This document shows positions 40,961 to 57,208 of a stretch of 64,000 nt of DNA, in pieces. The position numbers were made by a program, and so were the translations under genes. Positions within the stretch are counted from its first letter, which is position 1; every line of letters begins with the position of its first letter. Source of the stretch: Streptococcus infantarius subsp. infantarius ATCC BAA-102. GTDB taxonomy: Bacteria > Bacillota > Bacilli > Lactobacillales > Streptococcaceae. The stretch spans positions 169,423 to 233,422 of the forward strand of contig NZ_DS572693.1 of the NCBI RefSeq assembly GCF_000154985.1, in the 5' to 3' direction. The notes below the pieces were generated by a model. That model was not told where the DNA came from. It did no database searches and saw nothing but the letters and a program-made list of their open reading frames with translations.

Positions 40961-41701
40961 ATGCCACAGTTAGAATTAGTGAGAGCTAAAGCTCAAATGG
41001 TTAAGTCTATGGAGGAATATTACAATTCTATCCGTACCAATATTCAATTTAGCGGACGTGATTTAAAAGTCATTACGTTGACTTCAGCTCAATCTGGCGA
41101 AGGAAAATCAACAACGTCTGTTAACCTTGCAATTTCTTTTGCGCGTGCAGGTTTCCGTACACTTTTGATTGATGCGGATACACGTAATTCAGTCATGTCA
41201 GGAACGTTTAAATCTAATGAACGTTATCAGGGGTTGACAAGTTTCTTGTCTGGAAATGCAGAGTTGTCAGATGTTATTTGTGACACAAGTATTGATAATT
41301 TGATGATTCTTCCTGCTGGGCAAGTTCCACCAAATCCAACATCATTGATTCAAAATGATAACTTCAAATCGATGATTGAAACTGTTCGTGGACTTTACGA
41401 CTATGTTATCATTGATACACCACCGCTTGGTTTGGTTATTGATGCTGCTATCCTAGCACACCATTCAGATGCTAGCTTGCTTGTAGTAAAAGCGGGAGCT
41501 GATAAACGCCGTACGATTACGAAACTAAAAGAACAACTAGAACAAAGTGGTTCAGTTTTCCTTGGCGTTATTTTGAATAAATATGATATTCACTTAGATA
41601 AGTATGGTTCATATGGTAGTTACGGTGGGTACGGTAGTTATGGCAATTACGGAAAGAGTGACGAAAAATCAAAAAATGGTAGAGGTAAACGAAAAAAATA
41701 G
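40961..41701 (+). CDS. cpsD: Tyrosine-protein kinase CpsD/Wze
   Basis: 246 residues, BY-kinase. Walker A is SAQSGEGKSTTSVN, Walker A' is TLLIDADTRN and Walker B is YVIIDTPPLG. The C-terminal tail is a Tyr-Gly cluster (YGSYGSYGGYGSYGNYG), the autophosphorylation site. With CpsB and CpsC it controls polymer export and chain length. Confidence 0.96.
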   Translation: MPQLELVRAKAQMVKSMEEYYNSIRTNIQFSGRDLKVITLTSAQSGEGKSTTSVNLAISFARAGFRTLLIDADTRNSVMSGTFKSNERYQGLTSFLSGNAELSDVICDTSIDNLMILPAGQVPPNPTSLIQNDNFKSMIETVRGLYDYVIIDTPPLGLVIDAAILAHHSDASLLVVKAGADKRRTITKLKEQLEQSGSVFLGVILNKYDIHLDKYGSYGSYGGYGSYGNYGKSDEKSKNGRGKRKK

Positions 41702-41739
41702 CTGATACTTTTACCTTAGAGTAGGGAACAGGGGGTTAT

Positions 41740-43116
41740 ATGTATAGCGAAGATTCGAAAAAGAAAGTTTATTACCTTTTGTCAGATATTATAGCTTTAG
41801 TGGTAAGTTACCTCATCTTAGCACAATTTTATCCTTATCATTTTTTTGATAGTAAATTCTTTGCAGTTGTTTTTGGGATTTTAATTGTGATTGTTGGTGT
41901 TTTGAGCGATGAATACTCTTCAATTACAAATCGTGGTTATTTAAAAGAATTAAAAGCATCTGTGATTTATGGTATGAAAGTTTTAGTTTTATTTACTTTT
42001 GTACTGATACTTGGAAAAATTCGTTTTATCCATGACATTTCACAGATGTCTTATTTCTTCTTGGGGCAAATTTTTATTTTAGTAGCGCTGTTTGTATTTA
42101 TTGGACGAATTATAGCAAAAAATCTTTTTAGAAGCCATACACCTATTACTAAAGAGATTCTCTTTGTTACAGATTTTAAAAATGACAAGGAGGTCACTAA
42201 AGACCTTAACAATTCCAATTACCATATTGCTGCTTATATCAGTCGTCGTGATAATCCTGACATTTCACAGCCTACCTTAAAAAGTACTAAAGAAATTAGA
42301 GATTTTGTGGCAAATCACCAAGTTGACGAGATATTTGTTGCCAAAAATCACCAAGATGATTTTATAGAATTTGCTCATTGCTTAAAATTGTTAGGAATTC
42401 CAACGACAGTAGCTGTTGGGAATTATTCGGACTTCTATGTTGGAAATAGTGTTCTAAAAAAATTAGGTGATACGACCTTCATAACGACAGCATTCAATAT
42501 TGTAAAATTCCGTCAAATTGCTTTAAAACGTCTTATGGATATTGCAATGGCTTTAGTTGGCTTAGTGATTACTGGGATTGTAGCTATTATTATTGCACCG
42601 ATAGTCAAGAAACAATCACCAGGACCTCTAATCTTTAAACAAAAACGTGTTGGTAAAAACGGTAAAGTTTTTGAAATTTACAAATTTAGAAGCATGTACA
42701 CCGATGCCGAAGAACGCAAAAAAGAATTATTAGCACAAAATGATTTGGATACTGACTTAATGTTTAAGATGGAAGATGACCCTCGTATCTTCCCATTTGG
42801 ACATAAGTTACGTGATTGGTCACTTGATGAATTACCACAATTTATCAATGTCCTAAAAGGTGAAATGTCTGTTGTGGGCACGCGTCCACCAACGCTTGAT
42901 GAGTATCATCACTATGAGTTACATCATTTCAAACGCTTAACAACCAAACCAGGAATCACTGGCTTATGGCAAGTTAGCGGTCGTAGTGACATTACCGACT
43001 TTGAAGAAGTCGTGGCACTTGATATGAAGTATATCCAAAATTGGAGCATCAGTGAAGATATTAAAATTATTGCCAAAACATTTGGAGTCGTACTAAAAAG
43101 AGAGGGAAGTAGGTAG
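41740..43116 (+). CDS. cpsE: Undecaprenyl-phosphate sugar-1-phosphate transferase CpsE
   Basis: 458 residues. Four N-terminal helices and a CoA-binding-like middle part are followed by a C-terminal bacterial sugar-transferase domain (FKQKRVGKNGKVFEIYKFRS and SLDELPQFINVLKGEMSVVG). It starts the repeat unit by placing a sugar phosphate, usually glucose, on the lipid carrier. The gene ends the intact, typically streptococcal part of the operon. A hairpin lies just after its stop. Confidence 0.93.
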   Translation: MYSEDSKKKVYYLLSDIIALVVSYLILAQFYPYHFFDSKFFAVVFGILIVIVGVLSDEYSSITNRGYLKELKASVIYGMKVLVLFTFVLILGKIRFIHDISQMSYFFLGQIFILVALFVFIGRIIAKNLFRSHTPITKEILFVTDFKNDKEVTKDLNNSNYHIAAYISRRDNPDISQPTLKSTKEIRDFVANHQVDEIFVAKNHQDDFIEFAHCLKLLGIPTTVAVGNYSDFYVGNSVLKKLGDTTFITTAFNIVKFRQIALKRLMDIAMALVGLVITGIVAIIIAPIVKKQSPGPLIFKQKRVGKNGKVFEIYKFRSMYTDAEERKKELLAQNDLDTDLMFKMEDDPRIFPFGHKLRDWSLDELPQFINVLKGEMSVVGTRPPTLDEYHHYELHHFKRLTTKPGITGLWQVSGRSDITDFEEVVALDMKYIQNWSISEDIKIIAKTFGVVLKREGSR

Positions 43117-43125
43117 GGTCCCTCT
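43101..43125 (+). other. Hairpin at the end of cpsE
   Basis: AGAGGGA (43101-43107) pairs with TCCCTCT (43119-43125). No T run follows, so it is more likely an RNA-stability or attenuation hairpin than a terminator. Confidence 0.4.
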
Positions 43126-43148
43126 TCATTCTTGTATTGGGAGAAAAA

Positions 43149-43970
43149 ATGAAAAGTGTCTATATTATAGGTTCAAAAGGAATACCAGCAAATTATGGTG
43201 GGTTTGAAACCTTTGTAGAAAAACTAACTGAAAATCAAAAAAATAAAAATATTAAGTATTTCGTGGCTTGTACAAGGGAAAATTCAAAGAAATCTAATAT
43301 TAGTGAAGATTTTTTTGAATATAATGGTGCAACTTGTTTCAGCATAGATGTTCCAAATATTGGTCCAGCTAAAGCAATTGCATATGATATTGCTGCATTA
43401 AAAAAAGCAATTGAGATTGCAAAAGAAAATCGTGATAAAGAACCTATTTTTTATATTCTAGCTTGTCGTATTGGTCCATTTATTGGTCACTATAAAGTGT
43501 ATGGTCCTGCAGGTCGTCCGGACATGGCCTACTTCGGATTCACCAACAAGCTGGTGAAGGGCGAAACCATCAAGATTTTCAACTATGGCAACTGCAAGCG
43601 TGATTTTACTTATGTGGATGACATCGTTGAGAGTGTTGTCCGTGTGATGAAGAAAGCACCGGACAAGAAAAATGGTGAAGATGGTTTGCCGATTCCGCCG
43701 TATGCAGTTTACAACATTGGTAATCAGAACCCTGAGAACCTGCTAGATTTCGTGCAGATTCTGAGTGAGGAGTTAGTAAGAGCGAAAGTTCTGCCGGAAG
43801 ATTATGACTTCGAGGCACACAAGGAACTTTTTCCGATGCAGCCGGGTGATGTGCCTGTGACCTATGCAGATACCAGCGCACTGGAGCGTGACTTCGGATA
43901 CAAGCCGAGCACAAGTCTGCGGACTGGATTAAGAAATTTCGCTGAGTGGTACGCTGAGTTTTATAAATAA
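43149..43970 (+). pseudogene. Chimeric ORF: WchF-type rhamnosyltransferase N-terminus fused to nucleotide-sugar epimerase C-terminus
   Basis: Residues 1 to about 116 match the DUF1972 start of WchF/CpsF-type rhamnosyltransferases (GSKGIPANYGGFETFVEKL, then LACRIGPFIGHYK). At about 43497 the sequence changes without loss of frame to the C-terminal half of a UDP-glucuronate 4-epimerase-like SDR enzyme (VYGPAGRPDMAYFGFTNKL, RDFTYVDDIVESVVRV). The first part is AT-rich and streptococcal. The second is richer in GC, with CTG and GCG codons. The glycosyltransferase lacks its donor-binding half, and the epimerase lacks its NAD-binding Rossmann start and YxxxK site, so neither activity is expected. 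Confidence 0.8.
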
Positions 43971-43991
43971 AAGAATTAGAGGGATAGAGAA

Positions 43992-44333
43992 ATGAGAGAG
44001 TTTAAAGATTTAAAGATTGCTGTGGCTGGTACTGGTTATGTTGGTCTTTCTATTGCTACGTTGCTGTCTCAGCATCACAAGGTGACGGCAGTAGATATCA
44101 TTCCTGAGAAAGTAGAGCTGATCAATAACAAGAAGTCTCCGATTCAGGATGAGTACATTGAAAAGTATCTGGCAGAAAAGGAGCTGGATCTGACTGCAAC
44201 GTTGGATGCGAAGGAAGCATACAGTGATGCTGATTTTTTCGTAATCGCTGCACCGACAAATGTCTACTCAACAAACCGTATTGACGTTACATCGTCAAAA
44301 AGAGCCTGTTTTGTACACTATATAGGGTGCTGA
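43992..44333 (+). pseudogene. UDP-glucose 6-dehydrogenase, truncated after the N-terminal 90 residues
   Basis: The dinucleotide-binding start [20 protein letters not shown] and the following [12 protein letters not shown] match UDP-glucose/UDP-ManNAc dehydrogenases, which are about 390-430 residues long. Homology ends near 44262. The remaining codons ([17 protein letters not shown]) belong to the repeat mosaic that begins there. The catalytic Cys domain is missing. Base use resembles the epimerase part just upstream, so both come from the same foreign uronic-acid module. Confidence 0.8.
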
Positions 44334-44990
44334 AATTGGTTATATTTCACAGCTATATGAACTGTAAATGCAAGATATTTATACAAAACGCTGAACTTTT
44401 GACCCCTGTGGCACAAAATAGGCACAACTTTTTCAGATGTTATGAGGGAATGGCGAAAAACAGGAGAAAACAACAAAAATCCATGAGTTTATCATTAATG
44501 TCTGAAACTGCTGTTGAGTACACTATCTGACTCGCTAATGACACCAACATCATAACGGTTTGTTGAGTCATGAAAAATAGAGAAAAACAGATGATTTCTA
44601 CTTCAAAAAACAGCTGTTGAGTAGAGCATGAATGGTGATGATAATTACATGTTTTGAGTGGTTAAAGTGAATGATTTGTTCATAACGAACAATGAATGGT
44701 GAGAATTGGACTGGATGATATATACAGTTTTAACAAAACTCATGCCCCGACAGGGTTCGATTCAACAATCCAACACTTAGAAAAACGTCATTGCAGGGTA
44801 TACGGGGTTCGACTGTATAAATCAACACTTCGGTTATAGAGGAATAGAGACGAGTGTACTCAACGGATGTTTTATGAAGTAGAAACATGATTGCGGGGGT
44901 AATTGGATACGACAGTATAAGAAAACACTTAGCCGTGTGAGTGGCAAGAGGAAAAAGAGATACTATCTGTGAAGAACAGATGTGTACATA
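44261..44990. repeat. Gene-free mosaic of short inverted and direct repeats
   Basis: No credible gene lies here. A GTTGAGTA motif recurs: reversed at 44265-44272 and 44857-44864, forward at 44513-44520 and 44616-44623, with a variant at 44562-44569. ACTCAACAAACCGT (44266-44279) is the exact inverse of 44555-44568. GTTGAGTACAC (44513-44523) is the inverse of 44854-44864. A second family, GGTTCGA-11 bases-AACACTT, occurs at 44754-44778 and 44806-44830, with a related copy at 44905-44930. ATGAATGGTGA is repeated at 44628 and 44692. TTGTTC/GAACAA forms a dyad at 44676-44692. The pattern is like transposase- or integrase-binding ends of a lost element (inference). Confidence 0.6.
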
Positions 44991-45026
44991 GATAAAAATT
45001 TGAGGGATCAGTGGAGGAAGAAATCT

Positions 45027-46112
45027 ATGGCGGAGAAAAAGAAAATACTGTACATAGTCGAAGCTATGGGCGGAGGCGTTTTTACTTACATAGTTGATTT
45101 GGCAAATGAGCTGGTCAATTCCTATGATATGTACATTGCTTACGCGGTGCGAAAGCAAACGCCGGAAAATTATAAGGATTACTTTGACAAGCGAATTCAT
45201 TTGATTGAAGTCAAAAACTTTGGACGTGCAATTGATCCGGCGAAAGATATCGCCGCATTTTTTGAAGTTAAAAAAATAGCGGCAAAAATCAAGCCTGATG
45301 TAATCCATCTACATAGTAGTAAAGCTGGTGCAATTGGTCGGGTTGCGTTCAATGGAAAAATCCCAATGTTCTATACCCCGCACGGTTATAGTTTTCTGAT
45401 GGAAAATTATAAGCCGATGAAGCGTAGAATGTTTAAGGTGATTGAATCGGTGTGTGCAAAGCGAAATTGTACTACCATCAGTTGCAGCGTGGGTGAGCAT
45501 CAAGAATCTTTGAAACTTACTAGGCGTTCTACTTATGTGAACAATGGCATCAACATGGCAGAACTTCAGGAGATTATTGATAAGACGGAAAAAGTAGAGC
45601 ACTCATTCACAGTTTACACACTGGGAAGAATCTGCTATCAGAAAAATCCCACACTGTTTAATAAGATAGCCGAATCACTTCCAGATGTGAAATTTGTCTG
45701 GATTGGTGATGGTGAACTTCGAGACCAACTTACAAGCGAGAATATCGAAATCACAGGATGGGCTGACCGAAGCACTGCAATTAGATATGCAGTTAATGCA
45801 GATGTTTTTCTTTTACCAAGCAGATGGGAAGGACTTCCAATTTCTCTACTTGAATCCATGTATATGAAGAAAGCATGTGTGGTAAGTAATGTAATTGGTA
45901 ATTGGGATGTTATCCATAATGGTGAGAATGGCTTTGTGTGTACGAAAGTGGAAGACTTCGTAAAGGCTATCGAAGAATGTCAGGTTGAAGCTGAAAAACT
46001 AACAGAACATGCATATCAGGATATTCTAAAGATGTATAACACAAAAGTAATGGCGCAAATGTACATCAAAAAGTACGAAAATGCTCTGAATGAACGGGGG
46101 GGTACAGCATGA
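45027..46112 (+). CDS. Glycosyltransferase family 4
   Basis: 361 residues, GT-B fold. The N-terminal domain contains HLHSSKAGAIGRVA. The C-terminal donor site has YTLGRICYQKNP, WIGDGELRDQL and FLLPSRWEGLPISLLESM with the E-x7-E pattern. It transfers a nucleotide-sugar-derived residue to the lipid-linked repeat unit on the cytoplasmic side. ATG 45027 follows GTGGAGGAAG. A run of seven G's just before the stop (ERGGTA) makes the exact C-terminus uncertain. Confidence 0.88.
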   Translation: MAEKKKILYIVEAMGGGVFTYIVDLANELVNSYDMYIAYAVRKQTPENYKDYFDKRIHLIEVKNFGRAIDPAKDIAAFFEVKKIAAKIKPDVIHLHSSKAGAIGRVAFNGKIPMFYTPHGYSFLMENYKPMKRRMFKVIESVCAKRNCTTISCSVGEHQESLKLTRRSTYVNNGINMAELQEIIDKTEKVEHSFTVYTLGRICYQKNPTLFNKIAESLPDVKFVWIGDGELRDQLTSENIEITGWADRSTAIRYAVNADVFLLPSRWEGLPISLLESMYMKKACVVSNVIGNWDVIHNGENGFVCTKVEDFVKAIEECQVEAEKLTEHAYQDILKMYNTKVMAQMYIKKYENALNERGGTA

Positions 46113-46209
46113 CTTAATTCGTTTTATTGCGGTTATCAGGCCGTACACCCTTGCATACTCTGTTAGCATTGAGCCAGATAGTTATGGCACTGCAAAGGCG
46201 GTGGCATGA
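46113..46209 (+). pseudogene. Open tail fragment after the GT4 gene
   Basis: In the frame one over from the GT4 gene, codons stay open from the G7 run to a TGA at 46207-46209, ending with IRFIAVIRPYTLAYSVSIE and about ten more residues. It could be a frameshifted natural end of the GT4 protein or the tail of a deleted gene. It was not recognised. The TGA overlaps the next ATG. Confidence 0.3.
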
Positions 46210-46478
46210 TGAAAAAGATAAGGATTTTACATGTAGCGCAAGCTGCTGGCGGCGTGGATCGCTACATCCGAATGCTTCTCAAGTATTTGGATAAGGAAAA
46301 ATTTGAGAATATACTGGTTTGCTCACAGGATTTCCTTGAGGAAGATTATAGAGGACTGAAGGGCGAGTATAAGGGCAGCGCAAGTGCTGAAGGCTACACG
46401 CTGAAAGATGGTACTGCATTGAACTTGAGCGATAAGGACCAGAAGTGGCTGGGACTGAAAGATACTTTAAAATTTTAA
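46206..46478 (+). pseudogene. Chimeric ORF: GT4 N-terminus fused to RmlC (RfbC) C-terminal tail
   Basis: About 52 residues match the start of a GT4 glycosyltransferase (RILHVAQAAGGVDRYIRMLL). Near 46362 the frame passes directly into a piece that resembles the last 38 residues of dTDP-4-dehydrorhamnose 3,5-epimerase (GEYKGSASAEGYTLKDG, then NLSDKDQKWLGLKDTLKF). Only stubs of both enzymes remain, so no activity is expected. This is the second in-frame joint of unrelated sugar enzymes in the locus. Confidence 0.65.
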
Positions 46479-46494
46479 GGATAAGGAATAATCG

Positions 46495-47337
46495 ATGAAG
46501 ATATGTTCAATAGTGGTTCTATATGAGCCTAATAACAAAGAAATAGAAAATATTCTGGATTATTATGACAGCGTTGATAAAGTATATATTTTAGACAACT
46601 CAGTTGAAAGCAGAGAAGCAATTGTAAATGATGTTTTATCGAAGCGTAGTGGGCATGTCAAAGAAAAAGCGGAGTACATCCATTTCCATAAAAACATTGG
46701 TTTATGTAAAGCATTAAACCATGGAATGAAACTGGCGGCAGATGAAGGCTTTGAATGGGCTCTTATTATGGATGCCGATAGTACCTTCAATACTAATGTT
46801 GTGAAAGTATATAAAGATTATATCCAAAAGAATAACTGCAGTAAAATAGGTGTCCTTGCGCCAGTACATCTTCATGATAGAAACCTTGAGAGTAAATTTG
46901 AAGGACAAAGAGATGTGTCTTGGGCGATGACATCTGGATGCTTTTATAATATCAGCGTGTTTGAAACTGCTAATGGGTTTAAAGAGGAACTTTTTGTAGA
47001 CGGTTTGGATATAGATTATTGCTATAAAATGCATAGATATGGGTATCGCGTAGTAGAACTTGCGGATGCCCGAATTAATCATTTGCCAGCTGAAACTCGC
47101 ATGTTTAATCTTGGTGGATTTAAAGTAAAATATGGTGTGGCTTCACCGTGGCGGTATTACATGCAAGCTAGAGCAATAGTTTGGTTGGCACTGGAGTATA
47201 AGTCGCTAAGGGAGGTAGCTCGATACTGCGTGAAATGGGGAAAGGTACTTCTCTTGTTTGATAATAAGACGGATTACATAAAACAACTTATGCATGGAAC
47301 TAAAGATGGGATAAAACTATGGAGAAGTATTCACTGA
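46495..47337 (+). CDS. Glycosyltransferase family 2, rhamnosyltransferase-like
   Basis: 280 residues, GT-A fold. Features are SIVVLYEPN at the N-terminus, HKNIGLCKALNHGMKLA, the metal site LIMDADST (D-x-D), and FVDGLDIDYCYKMHRYGYR near the catalytic base. The layout matches RfbF/RfbN-type rhamnosyltransferases. It probably adds one sugar to the EPS repeat. The start ATG follows AAGGA. Confidence 0.85.
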   Translation: MKICSIVVLYEPNNKEIENILDYYDSVDKVYILDNSVESREAIVNDVLSKRSGHVKEKAEYIHFHKNIGLCKALNHGMKLAADEGFEWALIMDADSTFNTNVVKVYKDYIQKNNCSKIGVLAPVHLHDRNLESKFEGQRDVSWAMTSGCFYNISVFETANGFKEELFVDGLDIDYCYKMHRYGYRVVELADARINHLPAETRMFNLGGFKVKYGVASPWRYYMQARAIVWLALEYKSLREVARYCVKWGKVLLLFDNKTDYIKQLMHGTKDGIKLWRSIH

Positions 47338-47433
47338 GTGGAATAGTTTTATGACGTTTTATTATGATTTAGACATAGTTATTATCAGAAATAGATAAAA
47401 TACCGTATCAATTCAATGGAGGATATATTACAC

Positions 47434-48273
47434 ATGGACATATCAGCGGGCATTGTCCTTTTCAACCCAGACATTAAAAGATTAAAAGAGAACATAGATG
47501 CTGTTATTGTTCAGTGTACTCATGTGTATCTGGTGGATAATGGGTCAAAGAATATTAGTGAAGTGATTGAAATGTTGAATGGATTTAATTCTTCGCAGTT
47601 TTCTGTAATTCTCAATTTAGAGAATCAAGGAATTGCAAAAGCACTTAATCAGCTTACAATTGCTGCGCAGAAGGATGGATATGAGTGGATTCTCACATTA
47701 GATCAAGATTCAGTTTCTCCATCAAATATCATAGATGAGTTTGAAAATTACACGGCATATCAGAATGTTGGAATGCTATGTCCGGTTATTTACGATAGAA
47801 ATAAAGGCGAAGAAATAAAAGCCAAGGAAGGCTGTACAGAGATTGATGAATGTATTACGTCTGGATCACTTTTAAATATTGAAGCATGGAATAACATTGG
47901 TGGCTTTGATGAGAATATGTTTATTGATGGTGTCGATTTTGATATTTGTTATCGATTAAGACAAAGTGGATATAAAATTTTGTGCATTCAGAGCGTTATA
48001 CTTCTGCACGAATTAGGACGAATCGAATATCATCGTTTTCTCTTTTGGAGAGTTCTTGTGAAAAATCACTCAGCGTTTCGCAAATATTATATAGCTAGAA
48101 ATATTATTTATACTGCCAAGAAAAGAAGAAGTACGCTGCTGGTTGTAAAAGGACTATTGCAAGAAATTAAAATGATTGGCATTGTAATTTTTTATGAAGA
48201 AGACAAGTTAAATAAAAGCAGGTGCATCTGTAGAGGAATATATGACGGCTTTAAGGGAAAGGTTGGTGAATGA
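47434..48273 (+). CDS. Glycosyltransferase family 2, second rhamnosyltransferase-like
   Basis: 279 residues, same subfamily as the previous gene. Features are SAGIVLFNPD, NQGIAKALNQLTIAA, TLDQDSVSPS and FIDGVDFDICYRLRQSGYK. ATG 47434 is chosen because GGAGGA lies just upstream, inside the longer frame that begins at 47416. The stop overlaps the next gene (ATGA), so the polymerase is translationally coupled. Confidence 0.86.
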   Translation: MDISAGIVLFNPDIKRLKENIDAVIVQCTHVYLVDNGSKNISEVIEMLNGFNSSQFSVILNLENQGIAKALNQLTIAAQKDGYEWILTLDQDSVSPSNIIDEFENYTAYQNVGMLCPVIYDRNKGEEIKAKEGCTEIDECITSGSLLNIEAWNNIGGFDENMFIDGVDFDICYRLRQSGYKILCIQSVILLHELGRIEYHRFLFWRVLVKNHSAFRKYYIARNIIYTAKKRRSTLLVVKGLLQEIKMIGIVIFYEEDKLNKSRCICRGIYDGFKGKVGE

Positions 48274-49556
48274 TTATGGTTGCATTAGAAGGCTTTATTG
48301 TAGCATATTCGTTCATTAATCTCATATTAATGATTAAAAAGTACAAAAGATTTCATAGTATATATCCGGTTATAGCTGTTTTTGACTTAGTTATGGTAGT
48401 TCCACTTTTTCTAGAGATGTATTTTGGCATCCCAGATATACCAAGGGATGTATATATGAATTTTGTTCGAGCTATGGAGGATCAAACTACATTACTAATA
48501 TACTGCTTATTTGTTCTTCTGGCTCAGTTGATGTTTACATATGAATTAAGAAGAATCAAGAGATTAGATCGAAGCGTAACAAGAACTAACGATATACAAG
48601 AGTTTCTGCTGTTTATTCAAGATTTCAAATATCGTAAGATAGTTGTAGGAATATGTTACATTATTGTTGCAGCAAGTGTATTTTCTGTTATAGTTGCACC
48701 TAATCCAATGTACTATTTGACATTCCGAAATGTTCATATTCAGGTATCAGATTCAATTGCTAGATACTCGGAGCATGTTATTGGGCCATTATTTAATTTA
48801 CTTGTTGGTGCGATAATCGCCTTGAAGTTATTTGATTCTAAAAATAAAATTGGTGGAGTTATTTTTAGGATAGTCTTAATAGTTTTTTTTACAGTGGTAA
48901 ATGGAAAACGAACATATCTGATGATAATAATTGGGGTGTTCTTTTTGATTGATCTTCTTAAGGAAGGTTCACTAAAAAAGATTGCTCCAAAATATGTGTT
49001 TTTATTTGGTATGGTTGCGGTTTATTTTTATGCATATATGTACATAACAGATAAAATTAGTTTTAATAGTGATTGGTATTACGAGATGCAGGAGTATATT
49101 TTCCGCTCAATGCATGTCAGATTCTCTATATATGCAACGCTTCATCCTGAAAAGCTTCATATTTTGGATTATCCGGGACAATCGATGTTATATAGTTTGT
49201 TTTTCTTTATCCCAAGAGCAATATGGATAAGTAAGCCGAGACCATACATTGATTATTATATGCGTGGAGTATTGGGGTCATCTTCATTAAGCGATGTGAC
49301 ATATCATATGCCAGCTTCTTATTATCCAGAGTTTGTTTCAAACTTTGGAATTTTGGGTCTGGCTCTTTCTTTAATATTTACAATATGGATTATGAGATAT
49401 TTTGATAAAAGAAAAACAGCATGCAAACTATTGGGAACTGGATTGATAGCATTACTTAATGTCTATTATTACAATGATTTGCTTAAGATTGTGGCAATGT
49501 TTATTCTCTATTTATGTATCACTGAAAAGTATAGATTTGTGATAGGAAGGAGATGA
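48270..49556 (+). CDS. Wzy-like oligosaccharide repeat-unit polymerase
   Basis: 428 residues with 10-12 hydrophobic helices and a large outer loop (about 265-350) containing the Arg-rich FRSMHVRFSIYATLHPEKL. This is the usual layout of O-antigen/EPS polymerases, which join lipid-linked repeats outside the membrane. Sequence conservation in this class is too low for a firm subfamily. AT-rich, as Wzy genes usually are. It is the only polymerase candidate in the locus. Confidence 0.75.
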   Translation: MIMVALEGFIVAYSFINLILMIKKYKRFHSIYPVIAVFDLVMVVPLFLEMYFGIPDIPRDVYMNFVRAMEDQTTLLIYCLFVLLAQLMFTYELRRIKRLDRSVTRTNDIQEFLLFIQDFKYRKIVVGICYIIVAASVFSVIVAPNPMYYLTFRNVHIQVSDSIARYSEHVIGPLFNLLVGAIIALKLFDSKNKIGGVIFRIVLIVFFTVVNGKRTYLMIIIGVFFLIDLLKEGSLKKIAPKYVFLFGMVAVYFYAYMYITDKISFNSDWYYEMQEYIFRSMHVRFSIYATLHPEKLHILDYPGQSMLYSLFFFIPRAIWISKPRPYIDYYMRGVLGSSSLSDVTYHMPASYYPEFVSNFGILGLALSLIFTIWIMRYFDKRKTACKLLGTGLIALLNVYYYNDLLKIVAMFILYLCITEKYRFVIGRR

Positions 49557-49562
49557 TTTGGA

Positions 49563-50705
49563 ATGAAGTATAAATACAAAAAACAACTGACCAAAATTAA
49601 GCGGATATTTCAGAACCCAGGGGACTTTAAATATCTTAACGTGAACAAAAAGGTTAAGCAATCTGGAATGCTCCTTGTTATTCATGAATCACAAGAATTA
49701 GGTGCAAGTATTTTAGCATTGCATATTGCTGAGGAACTTAAGCATCAGGGAGTAGATGTCTATATTGTCTCAAGGCAATTTGGCGTGATGAATGAAAAAT
49801 ATAATAAAGTTGCACCCCTTCAGATTGCACTGAACACAAAATCATATGAGGTAATATGCCGTAATCTTTATAAAAAAGGCTATAGAAAAGCATTAATCAT
49901 TACAGCTTCAAATGGAGATCTAGTGGAAATTACAAAAAAATGTGGTTTTAAAGTGATATCTATGATTCATGAATTAGAGCAAGTTATTAAGATGCTTCAT
50001 TTGGAAGATGCAACAAGAGATATGCTGGTGTACTCTGATAAAATTTTGTTTTCAACTACAATTGCAAAAAATCAGATTTTAAGTCTCTGTAAAGTTTGTG
50101 ACAGTCAGAAGATATCTATAAAGCCGCAAGGAACGTATTTGAAAAAGCCCTCATCGGAAGAGATAAAAAGACAAAGAGAGAAGATTGCAGAAGCTTATCC
50201 CGTTTTAGACTGTGGCAAAAAAGTGATAGCAGGCGTAGGCAACACAACGGAGAGAAAGGGATTCGACATTTTCCTTCAGACAGCAGCATTAATACCGGAA
50301 TGTGAATTTATTTGGGCTGGAAAGAAGGAAAATTACTACGATGAGGCAATTGAGAAAAACGGAAATCCATCCAATTTTATTTTTCTTGGTTCACTTAATG
50401 CCGAGCAATTGTCTGGGGTATATTCTCTTGCTGATATATACTTAATGTGTTCGCGATTTGATACGTTGCCATCAACTATTTTAGAAGCGTTACTGTTTGG
50501 TACTCCTGTTATAGGGGCAAAAAATTCAGGTGGAATTGTGGACATTATAGATTCAGATAATGGATTTTTAACAGAAACGGCTGATAGTAAGCAGTTTGCA
50601 GAGGCTATAAAGGTAGGCCTTACTAGGAATTATAAAATTGAAGAGATAGACGGATCATTTGCAGAATATGTGGCATATGTGCTTTCGTTATATGAGGATG
50701 AATAA
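49563..50705 (+). CDS. Glycosyltransferase family 4
   Basis: 380 residues. The acceptor half is SGMLLVIHESQELGASILAL. The donor half has AGVGNTTERKGFDIFLQTAA, FIFLGSLNAEQLSGVY and MCSRFDTLPSTILEALLFGTP with the E-x-E pattern, all typical GT4. The start follows GGAAGGAGATGATTTGG. The stop overlaps the next ATG by one base. Confidence 0.85.
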   Translation: MKYKYKKQLTKIKRIFQNPGDFKYLNVNKKVKQSGMLLVIHESQELGASILALHIAEELKHQGVDVYIVSRQFGVMNEKYNKVAPLQIALNTKSYEVICRNLYKKGYRKALIITASNGDLVEITKKCGFKVISMIHELEQVIKMLHLEDATRDMLVYSDKILFSTTIAKNQILSLCKVCDSQKISIKPQGTYLKKPSSEEIKRQREKIAEAYPVLDCGKKVIAGVGNTTERKGFDIFLQTAALIPECEFIWAGKKENYYDEAIEKNGNPSNFIFLGSLNAEQLSGVYSLADIYLMCSRFDTLPSTILEALLFGTPVIGAKNSGGIVDIIDSDNGFLTETADSKQFAEAIKVGLTRNYKIEEIDGSFAEYVAYVLSLYEDE

Positions 50706-51637
50706 TGCTGATAACAGAAGATAAATATTTTATTTTTGATAAACCAAGAAATGAAAATTTTGTATACAAGACAAAATATTGCATAACAGTTATGCAATGC
50801 ATTGGATATAAAGTGTTGAAGACTATTTTTCGTAAAAAAGCGAGCGATGATAAAAAATATTATGTTTCAATTTGTGGTATTTTTAAAGATGAAGCTTTCT
50901 ATTTGAAAGAATGGATAGAGTACCATAAAAAGGCTGGAGTAGATCATATTTATCTTTATAATAATAACTCGACGGATAATTATCTGACGATCATTAAGCC
51001 ATACTTGGAGGAAAGATATATTGATTTAATTGATTGGCCGAAAAGTCAAGCCCAAATGGAAGCCTATCATGATTGTTTTAATCGATTCAGAAATGAAACT
51101 AGTTGGCTGGGGTTTATTGATATTGATGAATTTATTGTACCGATTGAAAATAAAAGTGTAAAAGAATATTTCAAAGAGCATGCTTATGAGCAGTCTATTT
51201 TAATATATTGGAAGATGTTTGGATCAAATGGTCTTATTCACAGGGATACAAAAAGACCAGTGACAAAAGACTTTACTTCCTGTTGGTATAAATATGATGA
51301 CATAGGAAAGTGCTTTATTAATACTGAATTTGAAATTTCGGATAAACAACCAATTTTACACCATATGTTATGGACAAAAAGAGGGGTGTTTAATATGCCT
51401 CCAGTAAACTGCTGTGGAAAAATTTGTCCAAGAGACTGGTATAATCCAGCTGATAGAGATGTCTTTCCGATTCAAATAAATCATTATGTGCTCAAATCAT
51501 ATGATGAATATATGAGTAAGGTGAATAAGAGTGATGTTATGTTCACTCAAAATCCAAAAGGAGAAGAGCACTTTAGAAGACATGATAGGCCATCGACGAG
51601 TACAGACTTTACAATTTCAAAATTTTTAGAAAAATGA
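50705..51637 (+). CDS. Glycosyltransferase family 92-like
   Basis: 310 residues. The pattern VSICGIFKDEAFYLKEWIEY, then HIYLYNNNSTDN and WLGFIDIDEFIVP (D-x-D in IDIDEF), fits the GT92/DUF23-like family found in bacterial EPS loci. The C-terminal half carries CCGKICPRDW and INHYVLKSYDEYMSKV. Sugar and acceptor are unknown. It is coupled to the previous gene. Confidence 0.8.
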   Translation: MLITEDKYFIFDKPRNENFVYKTKYCITVMQCIGYKVLKTIFRKKASDDKKYYVSICGIFKDEAFYLKEWIEYHKKAGVDHIYLYNNNSTDNYLTIIKPYLEERYIDLIDWPKSQAQMEAYHDCFNRFRNETSWLGFIDIDEFIVPIENKSVKEYFKEHAYEQSILIYWKMFGSNGLIHRDTKRPVTKDFTSCWYKYDDIGKCFINTEFEISDKQPILHHMLWTKRGVFNMPPVNCCGKICPRDWYNPADRDVFPIQINHYVLKSYDEYMSKVNKSDVMFTQNPKGEEHFRRHDRPSTSTDFTISKFLEK

Positions 51638-51660
51638 GTTATACAAGGGAAAGTTTATAT

Positions 51661-52044
51661 ATGGAGAAAAAAGTTTATGCACCGATGTTAATACCAACGC
51701 TTTGTAGAGACCAACACTTTATGCGGTGCATAGAAAGTTTAAAGAAGAATACTTGGGCTAAATATACAGATGTCTATATTTGGCTTGATTATCCGCTCTT
51801 GGCAACAAAAAATGGCGGTTCGGAAGAGATTTTGGAAGATGGTCGTTTCGGTGAATTGATTGAAAATACGGGGGATGTGTCTACGTTGTCTGCTAATGTA
51901 TTGGGTGCTGTAAACAACGTGAAAGATTTAAAAAGCAAAGCACTATCCGCACAGAGTCATTTTTCAATGGCGAAAGTTTTGAGTGAATATACTCGATTAA
52001 TTGATAAAGTTTCGGTAGATAGGAATACGTTAAAAAATGAATAG
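51661..52044 (+). pseudogene. Chimeric ORF: glycosyltransferase N-terminus fused to GT4 C-terminus
   Basis: The first 45 residues (VYAPMLIPTLCRDQHFMRCI, VYIWLDYP) look like the start of a GT-A-type glycosyltransferase. At about 51796 the frame runs without a break into a GT4 C-terminal end (LATKNGGSEEILEDGRFGEL, HFSMAKVLSEYTRLIDKV). The whole is 127 residues against 300-380 for either parent. The GT4 donor-site core is missing, so activity is unlikely. ATG 51661 follows AAGGGAAA; an ATG at 51634 overlapping the previous stop is the alternative. It is the third in-frame joint in the locus. Confidence 0.7.
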
Positions 52045-53548
52045 AACTAAGCGAGCAAAATTAAATGTAATGGTTACGTTAATAACTTATTTTGTACAGT
52101 TGTTTCTTATGATGATTGTACGTGTGGTGTTCATTCAAAAGTTAGGTAACGATTACCTAGGATTAAATGGCGTATTAACAAGCACTTTGTCAATGTTGTC
52201 ACTAGTTGATTTAGGATTGGATTCTGTCTTTGTGTACACTCTTTTTCAGCCATTAAAAGAAAAAGATGCAAAAAAAATCACAGCGGTCATGCGACTTTAC
52301 AGGAATACCTTTAGATGGATTGCAATTATTGTAACTGTTTTAGGAGTAATTTTAGTAGCGTTTTTGCCTGAAATAATAGGGAATGCAGGCATGAAATTAC
52401 CGGATGTTTATACCATTTACTTTTTATTTCTAGCGAATACAGTTTCAAGTTATTTGCTTGGTTATAATCGATCTGTATTAAATGCAAACCAGCAAGGGTA
52501 TATTGTGAATGGAGTAACTTCGCTTAGCTTTGTAGTTGTAAATCTGGCTCAGCTGATTAGCTTAATGATTTTTAAAAATCCGGTTTTGTATGTGTCTATA
52601 CAACTAATGGGAACTATTGTTTCGAATGTAATTATTACTGTAATTGCGCGGCATGAGTTTCCTTTTTTGAAGGTTACTGACCGAGTTCTTCTTGATTCTT
52701 CAGAAAAATCCAAAATTTTTAAAAATGCGGTTGGTGGGTTTTCAAGTAAAATAGGGAGCTTGATCGTTTTTGGTAGTGATAATATTATTTTGTCGCTATT
52801 TACTAATCTAGCCACTGTTGGTATCTATTCAAATTATTCAGTAATAACGAATGCTATACAGACAATTCTGCAAAAAGTTTCCAGCGCGTTAGCCCCGAGT
52901 GTTGGACATTTAGGTGTTGAAAGAGATTCTGAAAAAAATAGAATTGTATTAACAGAAATAATTTTTATTTTCTATACATTAATCGCGGGTGGATATGCAA
53001 TTTATTTAGTTGTACTTTCGCCATTTATGCGCATGTGGGTAGGAGAAAAATTTGTATTTTCTGTTCACACGGAAACTTTGATTTCTATTGTACTTATTTT
53101 GCAGTTAGTTCGTGTGCCATTTTGGATATACATTGATGCTTTTGGATTACAATGGGTTCAGAGGTGGAAGTCGATCATAGAGTCTTTTGTAAATATCTTC
53201 TTAACGTTGCTGTTCGTTGGTCCATTTAAGCTGGGGGTGAATGGGGTATTGCTAGGAACGATACTGTCCACAGCAATGACCGTATCATGGATAGAACCAT
53301 TCGTTATTTACAAGTATCCTTTGAAAGGAAATTTTCAAGGTGTGTCAGAACTATTGTGTAAGTTTGGATTGCTATTCGGTATTCAAACTTTCCTTGGTTA
53401 TTTAGGCAAGGCGTACTTGGGTGGTAATTCATTAATTTCAATAATGGGAAAAGTTGCCACGATGCTTTTGGTAAGCGCTGCAATGATTATCATAATGTTT
53501 GGCCGAAGCAACTATTTTTGGGCATTAAAAAAGCGTCTGTTCAATTAA
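52037..53548 (+). CDS. Wzx-like polysaccharide flippase
   Basis: 503 residues with 12-14 helices of the MATE/PST family. The N-terminus is LITYFVQLFLMMIVRVVFI, followed by LGNDYLGLNGVLTSTLSMLS, as in streptococcal Wzx proteins. It moves lipid-linked repeat units to the outer face for polymerisation. It overlaps the previous ORF by 8 bases and is followed by the operon's terminator. Confidence 0.9.
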   Translation: MNRTKRAKLNVMVTLITYFVQLFLMMIVRVVFIQKLGNDYLGLNGVLTSTLSMLSLVDLGLDSVFVYTLFQPLKEKDAKKITAVMRLYRNTFRWIAIIVTVLGVILVAFLPEIIGNAGMKLPDVYTIYFLFLANTVSSYLLGYNRSVLNANQQGYIVNGVTSLSFVVVNLAQLISLMIFKNPVLYVSIQLMGTIVSNVIITVIARHEFPFLKVTDRVLLDSSEKSKIFKNAVGGFSSKIGSLIVFGSDNIILSLFTNLATVGIYSNYSVITNAIQTILQKVSSALAPSVGHLGVERDSEKNRIVLTEIIFIFYTLIAGGYAIYLVVLSPFMRMWVGEKFVFSVHTETLISIVLILQLVRVPFWIYIDAFGLQWVQRWKSIIESFVNIFLTLLFVGPFKLGVNGVLLGTILSTAMTVSWIEPFVIYKYPLKGNFQGVSELLCKFGLLFGIQTFLGYLGKAYLGGNSLISIMGKVATMLLVSAAMIIIMFGRSNYFWALKKRLFN

Positions 53549-53593
53549 ACGTATTACTTTTTAGGGTACGGATTGATTACGAACGTAAAAAAA

Positions 53594-53642
53594 GGTATCG
53601 CACAAGCCGACTTTTGGGTTAGTTTGTGCGATGCCTTTTTAT
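53594..53642 (+). terminator. Terminator of the EPS operon
   Basis: 12-bp stem GGTATCGCACAA/TTGTGCGATGCC (one T-G pair) with an 18-base loop and five T. Confidence 0.85.
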
Positions 53643-53656
53643 TGGTGATAAATTAG

Positions 53657-54225
53657 GGCTCTTTGTCAACTGTAGTGGGTGACTTATAGCTAAGCACGAG
53701 AGGAGACGAAATGCGTCTTCTCTTTTTGCATGTTTAAAGCGATAAAGATACGTTTTTTAAAATTGTCAAAGTTCCTGAATCCAAAGGCATTACGCTTGAT
53801 GTCTTTGATGAGTTTGTTGGTTGCCTCCAGTTTGGCATTAGAATAGGGAAGTTCAATGGCATTGGTAATGTATTTCTTATACCAAACGAAAGTTGTTAGA
53901 GTTGTTTTTAATGAGCGATTGAGTTGATGTAAAACTTCCTGAATTAATCCAAAAAATTATTCGGTATGCTGTTCTTGTAAGTGAAAAAGAAGTAATTGAT
54001 AAAGGTTGTAGTATTTTTTAAGTTGCGGAACGTGTTTAAAAATCTTGTCTAAACACTCTCTAGGCGTTAACGTTTCTCTGAAAGTCCTTGAATAAAAAGC
54101 ATTAGGCGATAGTTTTCGACGATACTTTTGATGAGTTAGAACGCTGTAATGGATATTTGGATGTTTTAGAACATGTGCTTGATGTAGCTTCTTTTTGATA
54201 TAAGGTCGAAAAAAGAATTGTTAAA
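53657..54225 (-). mobile_element. ISL3-family insertion sequence remnant
   Basis: GGCTCTTTGTCAACTGTAG (from 53657) looks like an ISL3/IS1193-type terminal repeat. On the minus strand, codons from about 54222 down to the TAG at 53700-53702 give a transposase C-terminal part (KYRRKLSPNAFYSRTFRETL, AFGFRNFDNFKKRIFIALNM). An in-frame stop interrupts it near 53950 (QEQHTE-stop-FFGLIQE). The other end and the N-terminal half of the transposase are missing. It marks the right border of the variable EPS region. Confidence 0.8.
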
Positions 54226-54375
54226 GCTTGGAATAGTAAGCATCTTTGTTAAATTTTTAGAATTATTTCTAGGAATTTCTGCTCCTTACTGCTTTTTCTG
54301 TAAAAATAGTGTAAAATAGTAGGGAATGATTTAAAAGGTTTACAGGCCTTTAGATATGATAAAAGGAGTGCTAAA

Positions 54376-55230
54376 ATGATTTTAGTTACAGGTGCCAATG
54401 GGCAATTAGGAACAGAGTTACGTTATCTTTTGGATGAACGTGGTGAGGAGTATGTAGCGGTTGACGTTGCAGAAATGGACATCACTAATGCTGAAAAAGT
54501 TGATGAAGTATTTGCACAAGTAAAACCAACACTTGTTTACCACTGTGCGGCATACACTGCGGTTGATGCGGCTGAAGATGAAGGTAAAGAACTTGACTAC
54601 GCCATCAACGTGACAGGTACTGAAATCGTAGCTAAAGCTGCAGCAAAATATGGTGCAACTCTTGTTTACATTTCAACTGACTATGTTTTTGATGGTAAAA
54701 AACCAGTTGGTCAAGAATGGGAAGTTGATGATACTCCAGATCCTCAAACTGAGTACGGTCGTACAAAACGTTTGGGTGAAGAAGCAGTTGAAAAATACGC
54801 TGAAAAATTCTACATCATCCGTACAGCTTGGGTATTTGGTAACTATGGTAAAAACTTTGTTTTCACAATGCAAAACCTTGCCAAAACTCATGACACATTG
54901 ACTGTTGTTAATGACCAACACGGTCGTCCAACTTGGACTCGTACGTTGGCAGAATTCATGACTTACTTGACAGAAAACCAAAAAGAATTTGGTTACTACC
55001 ACTTGTCAAATGATGCTGATGAAGATACAACTTGGTATGACTTCGCGGTTGAAATCTTGAAAGATACTGATGTTGTCGTTAAACCAGTTGATTCAAGCCA
55101 ATTCCCAGCAAAAGCAAAACGTCCACTTAACTCAACAATGAGTCTTAAAAAAGCAAAAGCTACAGGTTTTGTCATTCCAACTTGGCAAGAAGCTTTGCAA
55201 GAATTCTACAAACAAGACGTTAAAAAATAA
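54376..55230 (+). CDS. rfbD: dTDP-4-dehydrorhamnose reductase
   Basis: 284 residues, SDR family. The NAD(P)-binding start is VTGANGQLGTELRYLL, the catalytic STDYVFDGK with YGRTKRLGEEAV (Y-x3-K) follows, and RTAWVFGNYGKNFV is characteristic of RmlD. It makes dTDP-L-rhamnose, a likely sugar for the rhamnosyltransferase-like genes upstream. The other rml genes are not in the window, apart from the RmlC tail in the chimeric ORF. A TAAAAT (54312-54317) upstream suggests its own promoter. Codon use is of the highly expressed streptococcal type, unlike the EPS genes. Confidence 0.95.
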   Translation: MILVTGANGQLGTELRYLLDERGEEYVAVDVAEMDITNAEKVDEVFAQVKPTLVYHCAAYTAVDAAEDEGKELDYAINVTGTEIVAKAAAKYGATLVYISTDYVFDGKKPVGQEWEVDDTPDPQTEYGRTKRLGEEAVEKYAEKFYIIRTAWVFGNYGKNFVFTMQNLAKTHDTLTVVNDQHGRPTWTRTLAEFMTYLTENQKEFGYYHLSNDADEDTTWYDFAVEILKDTDVVVKPVDSSQFPAKAKRPLNSTMSLKKAKATGFVIPTWQEALQEFYKQDVKK

Positions 55231-55245
55231 TCTTGATAAATAGAA

Positions 55246-55276
55246 GAAACTGAATTACGACTCGGTTTCTTTTTTT
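55246..55276 (+). terminator. Terminator after rfbD
   Basis: 8-bp stem GAAACTGA/TCGGTTTC with an 8-base loop and seven T. Confidence 0.85.
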
Positions 55277-55399
55277 GTTTAAACATATCGTTCGGTTTTT
55301 TTATTTTCAGTCTTCTTATCTTTTTTCATTGTCCTTTTACCTATTATGTGATATATTAGTAGTAACGTACTGTAATAGAAATGTAATATAAGTTATAAG

Positions 55400-56983
55400 G
55401 TGAGTGTGGTGGTAGCGATGAAAGATACAAACTCAAATGGGCATCGTTTATTAATTCAAAAATTACTTGTCAGCATTCATTACCTAACACTTTTCAGAGA
55501 TGAAATTGTTTTGGTTGAGAAGACCCCATCTTTATTGGGGGCTTCTTTTTCGCCAAATATTGTGCAATCAGAGTTATGTGAAATTTTGGCAGCAGTGGAT
55601 GCGCTTTCTAAGCAAGAAAAGTTGATTAAGTCAACTTTTTGGTATGATGAAGCGTCATTCAGATTGATGAATCACTCTTTGGATATTGTCGGTACTTGGG
55701 TTCGTGGGATTGATAACGTCTTGGAAATTTGTGAGTCTAAGTCTGTTTTCCATGCGATTTTGGGTGATAATCGTCAACGCGTTTTTGGTGTTTTGATTGA
55801 TGTCTTTACCTCTCTTCGTGTAACAAATTTATCAATCAAAGAAGAATCTGAATACCCTCTTTTGGTTGATCCGTTACAAGTTGTGGAATACAAGAAAAGA
55901 GAAGTCAAAAAAGTAGAGCTAATGGCTAAGATTGATGCTTTGACACCGAGAAAATCTGAAGAAGTTTATGATGACAGTGAAGACGAAAAAGTTGACTCTA
56001 TTCCAGAATTAGTAGAAAAAGAATTAGCTAAAGAAAAAGCAGCTAAGTCCGAAAAAGTCCTTGGACCAGGTGAATTAAAAGAAGTTGTTAAAGGAAATGA
56101 CGAAGTAGCCGATAACAAAGGAGACGCTGAGGAAGTCCTTGAACCTGTCGTTGCTGACGAAGCAGAAACTGTTGAAACTACTGATGCTGAAGAAGATGCT
56201 CCTCAAACTGAAGTAAGCCCAGAAGAAGTAAGTGAATCAGTTGATGAAGAACCAGTTGTTGAGGTAGAGGTGGAAAATTCTGACGAAGACAGCGAAGAGC
56301 AAATTCAAGAAGAAGTGACTCAATCTCCTGAAGAAGAAACTGAACAAGAAGTCTCAGAAGAAGCTGAGCTTGAGGAAGCTTCTGATGAAAATGAAGAAAT
56401 TGAAGAAACTGCAGAACTAGAAGTTGAAGACGACCTTGTCGAGGCAGAAGAGCCTGAGACAGTTGAGTTGGAAGAACCAGCTGATGAAGTTGCCACGAGC
56501 GATGAAAAACAAGTTAGCGATAACGAAGTGGTTGAGAAAGTCCTTCTTGACGAAGAATCTGAGAAAGAAGAAGTCAAAGAGTCTGATTTTCCAGTAATCA
56601 GTCGTGATGAGGCTGTTAAGCAGTTCCGTCACTTCCTTTTCGACCATAAAGGCTTGGTATGTGTCTTGGATGCTGGAGATGATTTGAAGCGCGAGATTAA
56701 CTTCTACAATGCGTTTGATCGTTTTTATGGTGCAGTAGATAATATCTCAGATTGCTTGGTTATCCTTGAAAATGTTTTGGATGAATTACGCCGCCGTAAA
56801 AAAGAAGTCTTTGATGCAGAAGGAAACTTGATTAGCGAACCGACTGAACCAATTAATCTATTGATTTATGGTCAAAATATCTTGCTAAAAGATAGTCGCT
56901 TTGAAACCTTGATGTCAGAAATCGCCCCATTTACCGGACGCTCTGATTTAAACATCTATTCTTATGCAGCATATCTAGATTAA
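55400..56983 (+). CDS. Conserved hypothetical protein with long acidic linker
   Basis: Up to 527 residues. The N-terminal domain (about 1-185) contains FWYDEASFRLMNHSLDIVG and the C-terminal domain (about 395-527) contains FRHFLFDHKGLVCVLDAGDD. Between them lie about 210 residues made mostly of Glu, Asp, Val, Ser and Thr, probably disordered. No signal, membrane helix or wall anchor is visible, so it should be cytoplasmic. The start is GTG 55400 or ATG 55418; neither has a strong ribosome site. The family was not recognised. Confidence 0.75.
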   Translation: MSVVVAMKDTNSNGHRLLIQKLLVSIHYLTLFRDEIVLVEKTPSLLGASFSPNIVQSELCEILAAVDALSKQEKLIKSTFWYDEASFRLMNHSLDIVGTWVRGIDNVLEICESKSVFHAILGDNRQRVFGVLIDVFTSLRVTNLSIKEESEYPLLVDPLQVVEYKKREVKKVELMAKIDALTPRKSEEVYDDSEDEKVDSIPELVEKELAKEKAAKSEKVLGPGELKEVVKGNDEVADNKGDAEEVLEPVVADEAETVETTDAEEDAPQTEVSPEEVSESVDEEPVVEVEVENSDEDSEEQIQEEVTQSPEEETEQEVSEEAELEEASDENEEIEETAELEVEDDLVEAEEPETVELEEPADEVATSDEKQVSDNEVVEKVLLDEESEKEEVKESDFPVISRDEAVKQFRHFLFDHKGLVCVLDAGDDLKREINFYNAFDRFYGAVDNISDCLVILENVLDELRRRKKEVFDAEGNLISEPTEPINLLIYGQNILLKDSRFETLMSEIAPFTGRSDLNIYSYAAYLD

Positions 56984-56984
56984 A

Positions 56985-57190
56985 AAAACAGTCCAGTGGA
57001 CTGTTTTTTCATGAGCCTGAAAACAGAAAAGCGAATAAGTCCAGTGGACTGTTTTTTCATGAGCCTGAAAACAGAAAAGCGAATAAGTCTAGTGGACTGT
57101 TTTTTCATGAGCCTGAAAACAGAAAAGCGAATAAGTCCAGTGGACTGTTTTTTCATGAGCCTGAAAATAGAAGAGCGAGCTAAGTCCATC
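56985..57190. repeat. 48-bp tandem repeat, four copies, each with a terminator-like hairpin
   Basis: Copies begin at 56991, 57039, 57087 and 57135 (exact 48-base period). Each starts GTCCAGTGGACTGTTTTTTC (copy 3 has T for C), followed by ATGAGCCTGAAAACAGAAAA. Copy 4 has a few changes, and a partial fifth AAGTCCA follows. The first copy can form AAAAAACAGTCC-AGT-GGACTGTTTTTT, a strong terminator for the upstream gene; the others keep the AGTCC/GGACT stem and T6. Open frames through it on both strands exist only because 48 is a multiple of 3. Confidence 0.92.
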
Positions 57191-57208
57191 AGAAACTTAC
57201 AAAAATAA

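Follow-up and report, generated by a model that had tools for sequence, protein, structure and literature searches.

Three open reading frames (ORFs) in an exopolysaccharide (EPS) operon of Streptococcus infantarius subsp. infantarius ATCC BAA-102 (contig NZ_DS572693.1) each connect, in frame, the start of one sugar enzyme to the end of another. We consider them, with a probability of about 0.8, to be scars of the mosaic assembly of the EPS locus, that is, remnants of cassette exchange and of deletion at short repeats. The operon lies within a stretch of 64,000 nt, called the window below, and all coordinates are window positions. The ORFs, which we number 1 to 3, occupy 43149-43970, 46206-46478 and 51634-52044 and encode 90-277 amino acids. 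An EPS block of 8.3 kb sits within a streptococcal cps operon; ORF 1 marks its left end and ORF 3 its right. In the history that we propose, this block was imported. At the left, a homologous crossover within the common DUF1972 gene would have been followed by the loss of 682 bp between DUF1972 and an epimerase gene, and ORF 2 would have arrived with the block, as an old deletion scar between a GT4 glycosyltransferase gene and rmlC that is still eroding in Lactococcus. The overall reading is an ordinary one, in which an EPS cassette came in from outside and recombination and deletion left scars in it. Its wider message is that such exchange can create in-frame "chimeric enzymes" at polysaccharide loci. 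A non-coding element inside the block and a clade of nuclease-dead TnpB-like proteins are reported as leads.

Composition of the fused reading frames

The three ORFs and their in-frame joints, described earlier in a sequence-only reading of this DNA, are present as stated, and profile and similarity searches confirmed that each derives from split parents. ORF 1, on the plus strand like all the window genes described here, starts with the 5' part of a DUF1972 gene of the Cps2T rhamnosyltransferase type (43149..43496; Pfam DUF1972, 7e-52, residues 1-116) and ends with the 3' part of an NAD-epimerase gene (43497..43970), recognized by a profile match to the C-terminus. The latter part has 98% DNA identity to the Lactococcus plasmids pJM3C (L093) and pUCCL641A (L095) and 97% protein identity to Faecalibacterium gallinarum (L021). 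ORF 2 gave no profile match, and its parts were assigned by similarity: a 51-residue GT4 N-terminal fragment (46206..46358), whose final 4 bp or so are common to both parents and which is 88% identical in protein to an intact 373-residue GT4 of F. longum (L013), and a 39-residue C-terminal fragment of rmlC (46359..46478), 68-95% identical to RmlC C-termini from Lachnospiraceae, Faecalibacterium and others. ORF 3 consists of a 54-residue glycosyltransferase-like N-terminal fragment (51634..51796) and a GT4 C-terminal fragment (51797..52044) with weak NCBIfam matches to GT4 C-termini; its stop overlaps the start of wzx by 8 bp.

Enzyme profiles are matched only in part in ORFs 1 and 3, neither of which holds a complete catalytic domain. 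A widespread full-length protein with the same fusion would have told against the chimeric nature of the ORFs. None covering both parts of ORF 1 was found among the matches listed from 147 Streptococcus genomes, and none covering both parts of ORF 3 in plasmids, where coverage reached at most 50%, in three of 72,556 records. The same operon contains a fourth joint, at 44,261/44,262, where ugd (UDP-glucose dehydrogenase) is truncated after codons 1-90 (43992..44261) and continues into non-coding DNA, so that no fused frame results.

An EPS block shared with Lactococcus plasmids

From 43,459 to 51,796 (8.3 kb), the window has the same gene order as, and 98-99% DNA identity by blastn to, the EPS clusters of three Lactococcus plasmids, pJM3C, pIBB109_AgSa_5 (L094) and pUCCL641A. 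Compared with pJM3C, identity was 97.97% over 43496-46248 (2,758 positions) and 99.14% over 46455-51796 (5,342 positions), and the gap between these two alignments falls at ORF 2. Nine plasmid records matched in a search with 43,000-53,600, and of the 72,556 searched these three plasmids covered 75-77% of it at 98.7%. The block is thus collinear with a Lactococcus-type eps cassette at well over 95% DNA identity. The flanks are streptococcal: a Streptococcus genome (G140) has 94.4% identity over 41,183-43,119 and 96.0% over 53,719-55,978, and a second (G062) 98.6% over 42,612-43,119.

Window and plasmids share genes, order, a truncated ugd and the non-coding element. Unlike the window, the plasmids keep most of the 5' half of the epimerase gene and a lactococcal cps front end, their homologue of ORF 2 is more eroded, and ORF 3 is absent. 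The exact end points of the block are therefore not common to both, 682 bp being gone at the left and a new partner being present at the right. Judging from the 98-99% identity across genera, the import would be recent, and the donor was probably a plasmid of Lactococcus or something closely related to such a plasmid, which also gives the probable direction of transfer. The suggestion that the locus is a mosaic of streptococcal and Lachnospiraceae DNA was half right: the nearest source found is Lactococcus plasmids, and clostridial relatives stand further back.

That Lactococcus and S. thermophilus exchange eps genes has been published (PMC9576995). That paper likewise describes eps genes on lactococcal plasmids with homology to eps loci of streptococci; compared with what is set out there, the window differs in that the edges of the exchange fall within genes and in-frame fusions are left behind. 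L. lactis JM3, the host of pJM3C, is described as mucoid in PMC6458302. In pJM3C both the DUF1972 gene and ugd are truncated, which, in a mucoid host, speaks against a need for intact copies there; its epimerase gene, though, is nearly whole.

Between the outer ORFs lie an intact GT4 glycosyltransferase gene (GT4a, 45027..46112, assigned by Pfam) and intact GT2, GT2, Wzy-like, GT4 and GT92 genes (46495..51637). The Wzy-like polymerase gene (48270-49553) has more differences from the plasmids than its neighbours, with 19 non-synonymous and 3 synonymous differences from pJM3C and 18 and 3 from pUCCL641A, and GT92 has 10 non-synonymous and no synonymous differences from pUCCL641A.

Two events at the left edge

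Over its final 38 bp (43459-43496) the DUF1972 part is identical to the DUF1972 gene of pJM3C, against about 70% identity just upstream. Four streptococcal homologues have 71-79% identity over these 38 bp, and four further lactococcal plasmids match 43,446-43,496 (51 bp) at 94%. The DUF1972 part up to about 43458 is of streptococcal type, and the switch between Streptococcus and Lactococcus sequence sits near 43,458, within a gene that both possess, as would be expected of a homologous crossover. The joint at 43,496/43,497 is a second event, separate from this switch: relative to all three plasmids it is a loss of 682 bp, with 1 bp of microhomology. On each plasmid the DUF1972::epimerase junction is out of frame and, since 682 is not a multiple of three, the loss restored the frame in the window.

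The DUF1972 gene contains what looks like another mosaic switch. Its first 80 bp (43149-43228) are identical to G140 and the next 230 bp are not, identity dropping to 68-85%.

ORF 2 as an eroding deletion scar

In F. prausnitzii (L017) GT4a is followed by an intact second GT4 gene of the parent type of ORF 2, so that ORF 2 looks like the scar of such a cluster. The nearest GT4 and rmlC relatives have about 4 bp (ACTG) in common at the joint. On pJM3C and pUCCL641A, a further 142-bp deletion between 8-bp repeats shifts the ORF 2 homologue out of frame to an early stop; both plasmids also have a 54-bp deletion between 9-bp repeats, which is in frame. In pIBB109_AgSa_5, 369 bp are gone, with 5 bp common at the joint, which removes ORF 2 and gives GT4a a new in-frame end. 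F. longum carries an independent rmlA'::'rmlC scar, out of frame.

It had been proposed that some recombination process joins EPS genes within coding sequence, and cassette import together with deletions at short matches is a process of that kind. The accompanying suggestion to look for microhomology was borne out, with 1, about 4, 8, 9 and 5 bp at five joints of the window and its relatives.

The right edge and the partner of ORF 3

Up to 51,796 the window differs from pIBB109_AgSa_5 and pUCCL641A by one mismatch in 51 bp, and then diverges. In these two plasmids the gene at the left of ORF 3 extends to codon 134, and in pJM3C it carries a frameshift. The partner, 51,797-52044, was not found in the plasmid relatives. 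The Wzx flippase gene (52037..53548; Pfam PF01943) lies beyond the imported block; it gave no match in the 147 Streptococcus genomes at 1e-100, a strict cut-off at which weaker matches are not displayed, and its best plasmid match was 40%.

Between wzx and rmlD, the segment 53,653-54,137 recurs in numerous genomes of Streptococcus, frequently in two or more copies each, and is probably an insertion-sequence remnant.

Weighing cassette exchange against other explanations

Several observations sit uneasily with a cassette exchange followed by simple deletions. Identity along the DUF1972 part varies, with an initial 80 bp that equal G140 and a middle that does not, and within the non-coding element the tract 44278-44456 differs from the plasmids more than its surroundings do; together these indicate that the history exceeds one clean exchange. 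The direction of transfer is something that we infer. The partner beyond 51,796 was absent from every set searched. Finally, in-frame joints number five of eight, above the one third expected by chance (P of five or more = 0.088).

The last figure bears on the strongest competitor, in which selection held each joint in frame: translation would then run on to the coupled start that follows, and polar effects would be averted. The sequence-only reading had put the chance of three in-frame joints out of three at about 4%. That calculation does not stand. It left out the fourth joint, at ugd, with which three of the four window joints are in frame (P = 0.11), and it treated as independent joints of which two, those of ORFs 1 and 3, are the two ends of one block; moreover, three of the five like joints in the relatives are out of frame. 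Only joints that leave an ORF had been counted, so that selection for frame was overstated, a caution that applies to any tally of open joints alone. Our own count of joints between coding sequences comprises five in frame (ORFs 1-3, the 54-bp deletion and the 369-bp deletion) and three out of frame (the plasmid DUF1972::epimerase junction, the 142-bp deletion and rmlA::rmlC). Two more joints end in non-coding DNA, ugd/element and a sugar-transferase piece/element on the plasmid pUCCL626B (L096), and their inclusion gives five of ten (P = 0.21).

Other features of the locus pull both ways. All three window ORFs are open, the stop of ORF 3 overlaps the wzx start by those 8 bp, and through the loss of 682 bp a junction that is out of frame on the plasmids became open, as selection for frame would predict; so would the five of eight. 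Yet the GT2 genes downstream remain intact in all three plasmids despite an ORF 2 that is frameshifted in two and removed in the third, which does not support the proposal that selection kept this particular frame open. DUF1972::epimerase is out of frame on the same three plasmids, and ugd runs into non-coding DNA before the next gene. The joint data neither require nor exclude weak selection for frame, and such selection is not established; as an account of every joint we think it unlikely. On the cassette-exchange reading, the open frames would reflect chance plus weak filtering and the short window proteins would be functionless scars, with a conceivable mild benefit from an in-frame ORF 3, given the overlap of its stop with the beginning of wzx.

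Since the block is nearly identical to plasmids of a different genus, an assembly artefact or Lactococcus contamination also has to be considered. This we regard as very improbable: the window has a more complete ORF 2 than any of the three plasmids, its block and theirs are 1-2% apart, and the DUF1972 switch is separate from the deletion joint. A comparison of non-synonymous with synonymous change (pN/pS) on the fragments was dropped as there were too few changes, the epimerase part having one synonymous and one non-synonymous difference from pJM3C and ugd two and one. That the fusion proteins function in their own right, for example as non-catalytic partners of other glycosyltransferases, is hardly credible: the ORFs of 90-277 residues are open and have changed little since the split from Lactococcus, but this divergence is too low to reveal selection, enzyme profiles are matched only in part, and no relative with the same fusion appeared among the matches listed.

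A conserved non-coding element behind truncated ugd

The DNA that follows ugd (44262..44993, plus strand, 732 bp) is a conserved, repeat-rich non-coding element with a strongly structured predicted fold. Its identity to the window copy is 95.4% in pJM3C, 94.1% in F. longum, 92.1% in F. gallinarum, 91.4% in Blautia schinkii (L038) and 87.5% in the loci L110/L183, with partial copies in L023, L024, pUCCL626B and L185. It was found in four of the 72,556 plasmid records, all from Lactococcus, in none of the 147 Streptococcus genomes (E-value 1e-10), in five of 299 genomes of the Blautia family (E-value 0.001), two of them strong, in one of 148 genomes of the Faecalibacterium family, and in two of 391 in the class (E-value 1e-10).

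The left end of the element stands directly behind codon 90 of ugd in three alleles (window/pJM3C, F. gallinarum and F. longum); other DNA precedes it in B. schinkii, L183 and L184. The three ugd stumps differ at 67-82% of synonymous sites with a pN/pS of 0.03-0.14, which indicates that the genes were still working while they diverged. The adjoining element, in contrast, varies by 4-8% over its whole length and by 7-14% within the first 240 bp. Two histories would account for this: at least three entries of the element into ugd at a single nucleotide, or recombination exactly at the boundary that swapped the stumps. A simple insertion was considered and set aside; the missing 3' part of ugd was sought in the F. 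gallinarum and F. longum contigs, the window and the plasmid regions, and only an intact second copy and a degenerate upstream copy turned up, both in F. gallinarum. L183 has its own ugd behind the element.

The predicted RNA fold, in which the two terminal bases pair with each other, is more stable than every one of 20 shuffled versions (z -4.15). Covariation is weak, with double changes in 7 of 221 predicted pairs and hardly any variation in the long helices, so that inverted repeats in the DNA explain the fold as well as RNA does. At the Rfam gathering score the element was unmatched, the lone sub-threshold match in 40-56 kb lying outside it, and neither B. schinkii, L156 nor F. longum gave a match. 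A phage origin was also rejected, with no match in 50,697 phage records or in viral contigs (one 30-base pattern).

Changes relative to pJM3C are clustered in 44278-44456; identity is 87% over 44262-44500 and 99% on either side. This tract lies between the inverted repeats 44266-44288 and 44546-44568 and looks like a swapped allele. On pUCCL626B (L096:11940-12502) the element is joined through a 5-bp match, AATGG, to a sugar-transferase fragment that is identical there to pJM3C, and a phospho-sugar mutase operon follows the element. At the end of the element-bearing F. longum contig (L190:10021-13089), ParB-like and ImpB/UmuC-like genes, recognized by eye, suggest an integrative element nearby.

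A nuclease-dead TnpB clade next to polysaccharide genes

In B. schinkii the element stands behind a TnpB-like gene (L038:27-1205) with a Cas12f1-like TNB domain (E-value 1e-10). A TnpB-like search of 299 genomes of the B. schinkii family at an E-value of 1e-20 gave 18 matches in seven genomes, and the neighbourhoods of 15 of the 18 loci were examined. At 12 of these, the first sizeable gene to follow on that strand has a polysaccharide or nucleotide-sugar function, and at one more a DUF4422 gene comes next with a GT4 gene behind it; the exceptions are L151, whose following genes run in the opposite direction, and L148, whose contig stops there. These genes (L038:27-1205, L144-L158 and L019:4015-5160) appear to encode dead nucleases. 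In RuvC-I, placed by eye, the Asp is absent in 16 of 16, with a mostly conserved D four residues on; in RuvC-II, P occupies the position of the Glu of 7wju in 15 of 16, with E adjacent in four; and in RuvC-III the Asp is absent in all 15 readable sequences, L147 stopping early and L019 having D one residue before.

Directly behind the gene lies a candidate RNA scaffold of 68-106 nt, closed by a 6-bp helix (G-U allowed) and complete at 18 of 19 loci, namely the 18 and L019, with G290 failing; the motif was derived from these same loci. Ten different pair combinations occur in the helix, a covariation that is computational. Elsewhere the same scan gave 14 scattered matches, including two in the window at a distance from the element, and a reversed control gave 22. 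Two of the 18 putative guides, whose boundary is uncertain, were searched and gave 13 near matches besides themselves; no credible target was found among the five examined, all inside unrelated genes.

Judged from these sequences, the combination of dead TnpB and scaffold would fit the TldRs described in PMC13418256, nuclease-dead repressors that resemble TnpB, with which it shares the lost RuvC residues, a structured RNA candidate behind the gene and a recurrent link to non-transposon operons. It differs from the TldR set out there in being linked to polysaccharide operons instead of fliC or csrA, and in that the two putative guides searched gave no target. We found no polysaccharide-linked TldR in the literature on TldR or TnpB with polysaccharide, in which subscription journals are thinly covered.

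The dead TnpB gene is absent from the window, from the pJM3C and pUCCL641A regions and from the Faecalibacterium loci searched, which limits the relevance of the clade to where the leader came from. Element and dead TnpB were seen side by side in a single genome, that of B. schinkii, where this occurs at two loci and the element is fragmented at one. Tentatively, the element may be a new kind of mobile, structured non-coding DNA that enters EPS loci site-specifically at the boundary of ugd codon 90 and, serving as the leader of sugar-nucleotide operons, passes between Streptococcus, Lactococcus and gut Clostridia, and Clostridial leaders of this kind might couple to a nuclease-dead TnpB clade whose guide-like RNAs control polysaccharide operons; we hold this doubtful on present evidence. 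If it were true, the element at one ugd nucleotide and the dead-TnpB clade would connect the switching of EPS with both a mobile element and RNA-guided regulation.

Further along the window, a small ORF at 56996-57208 encodes four similar 16-residue units (DCFFMSLKTEKRISPV...) and is mirrored on the minus strand; it is a short tandem DNA repeat between genes.

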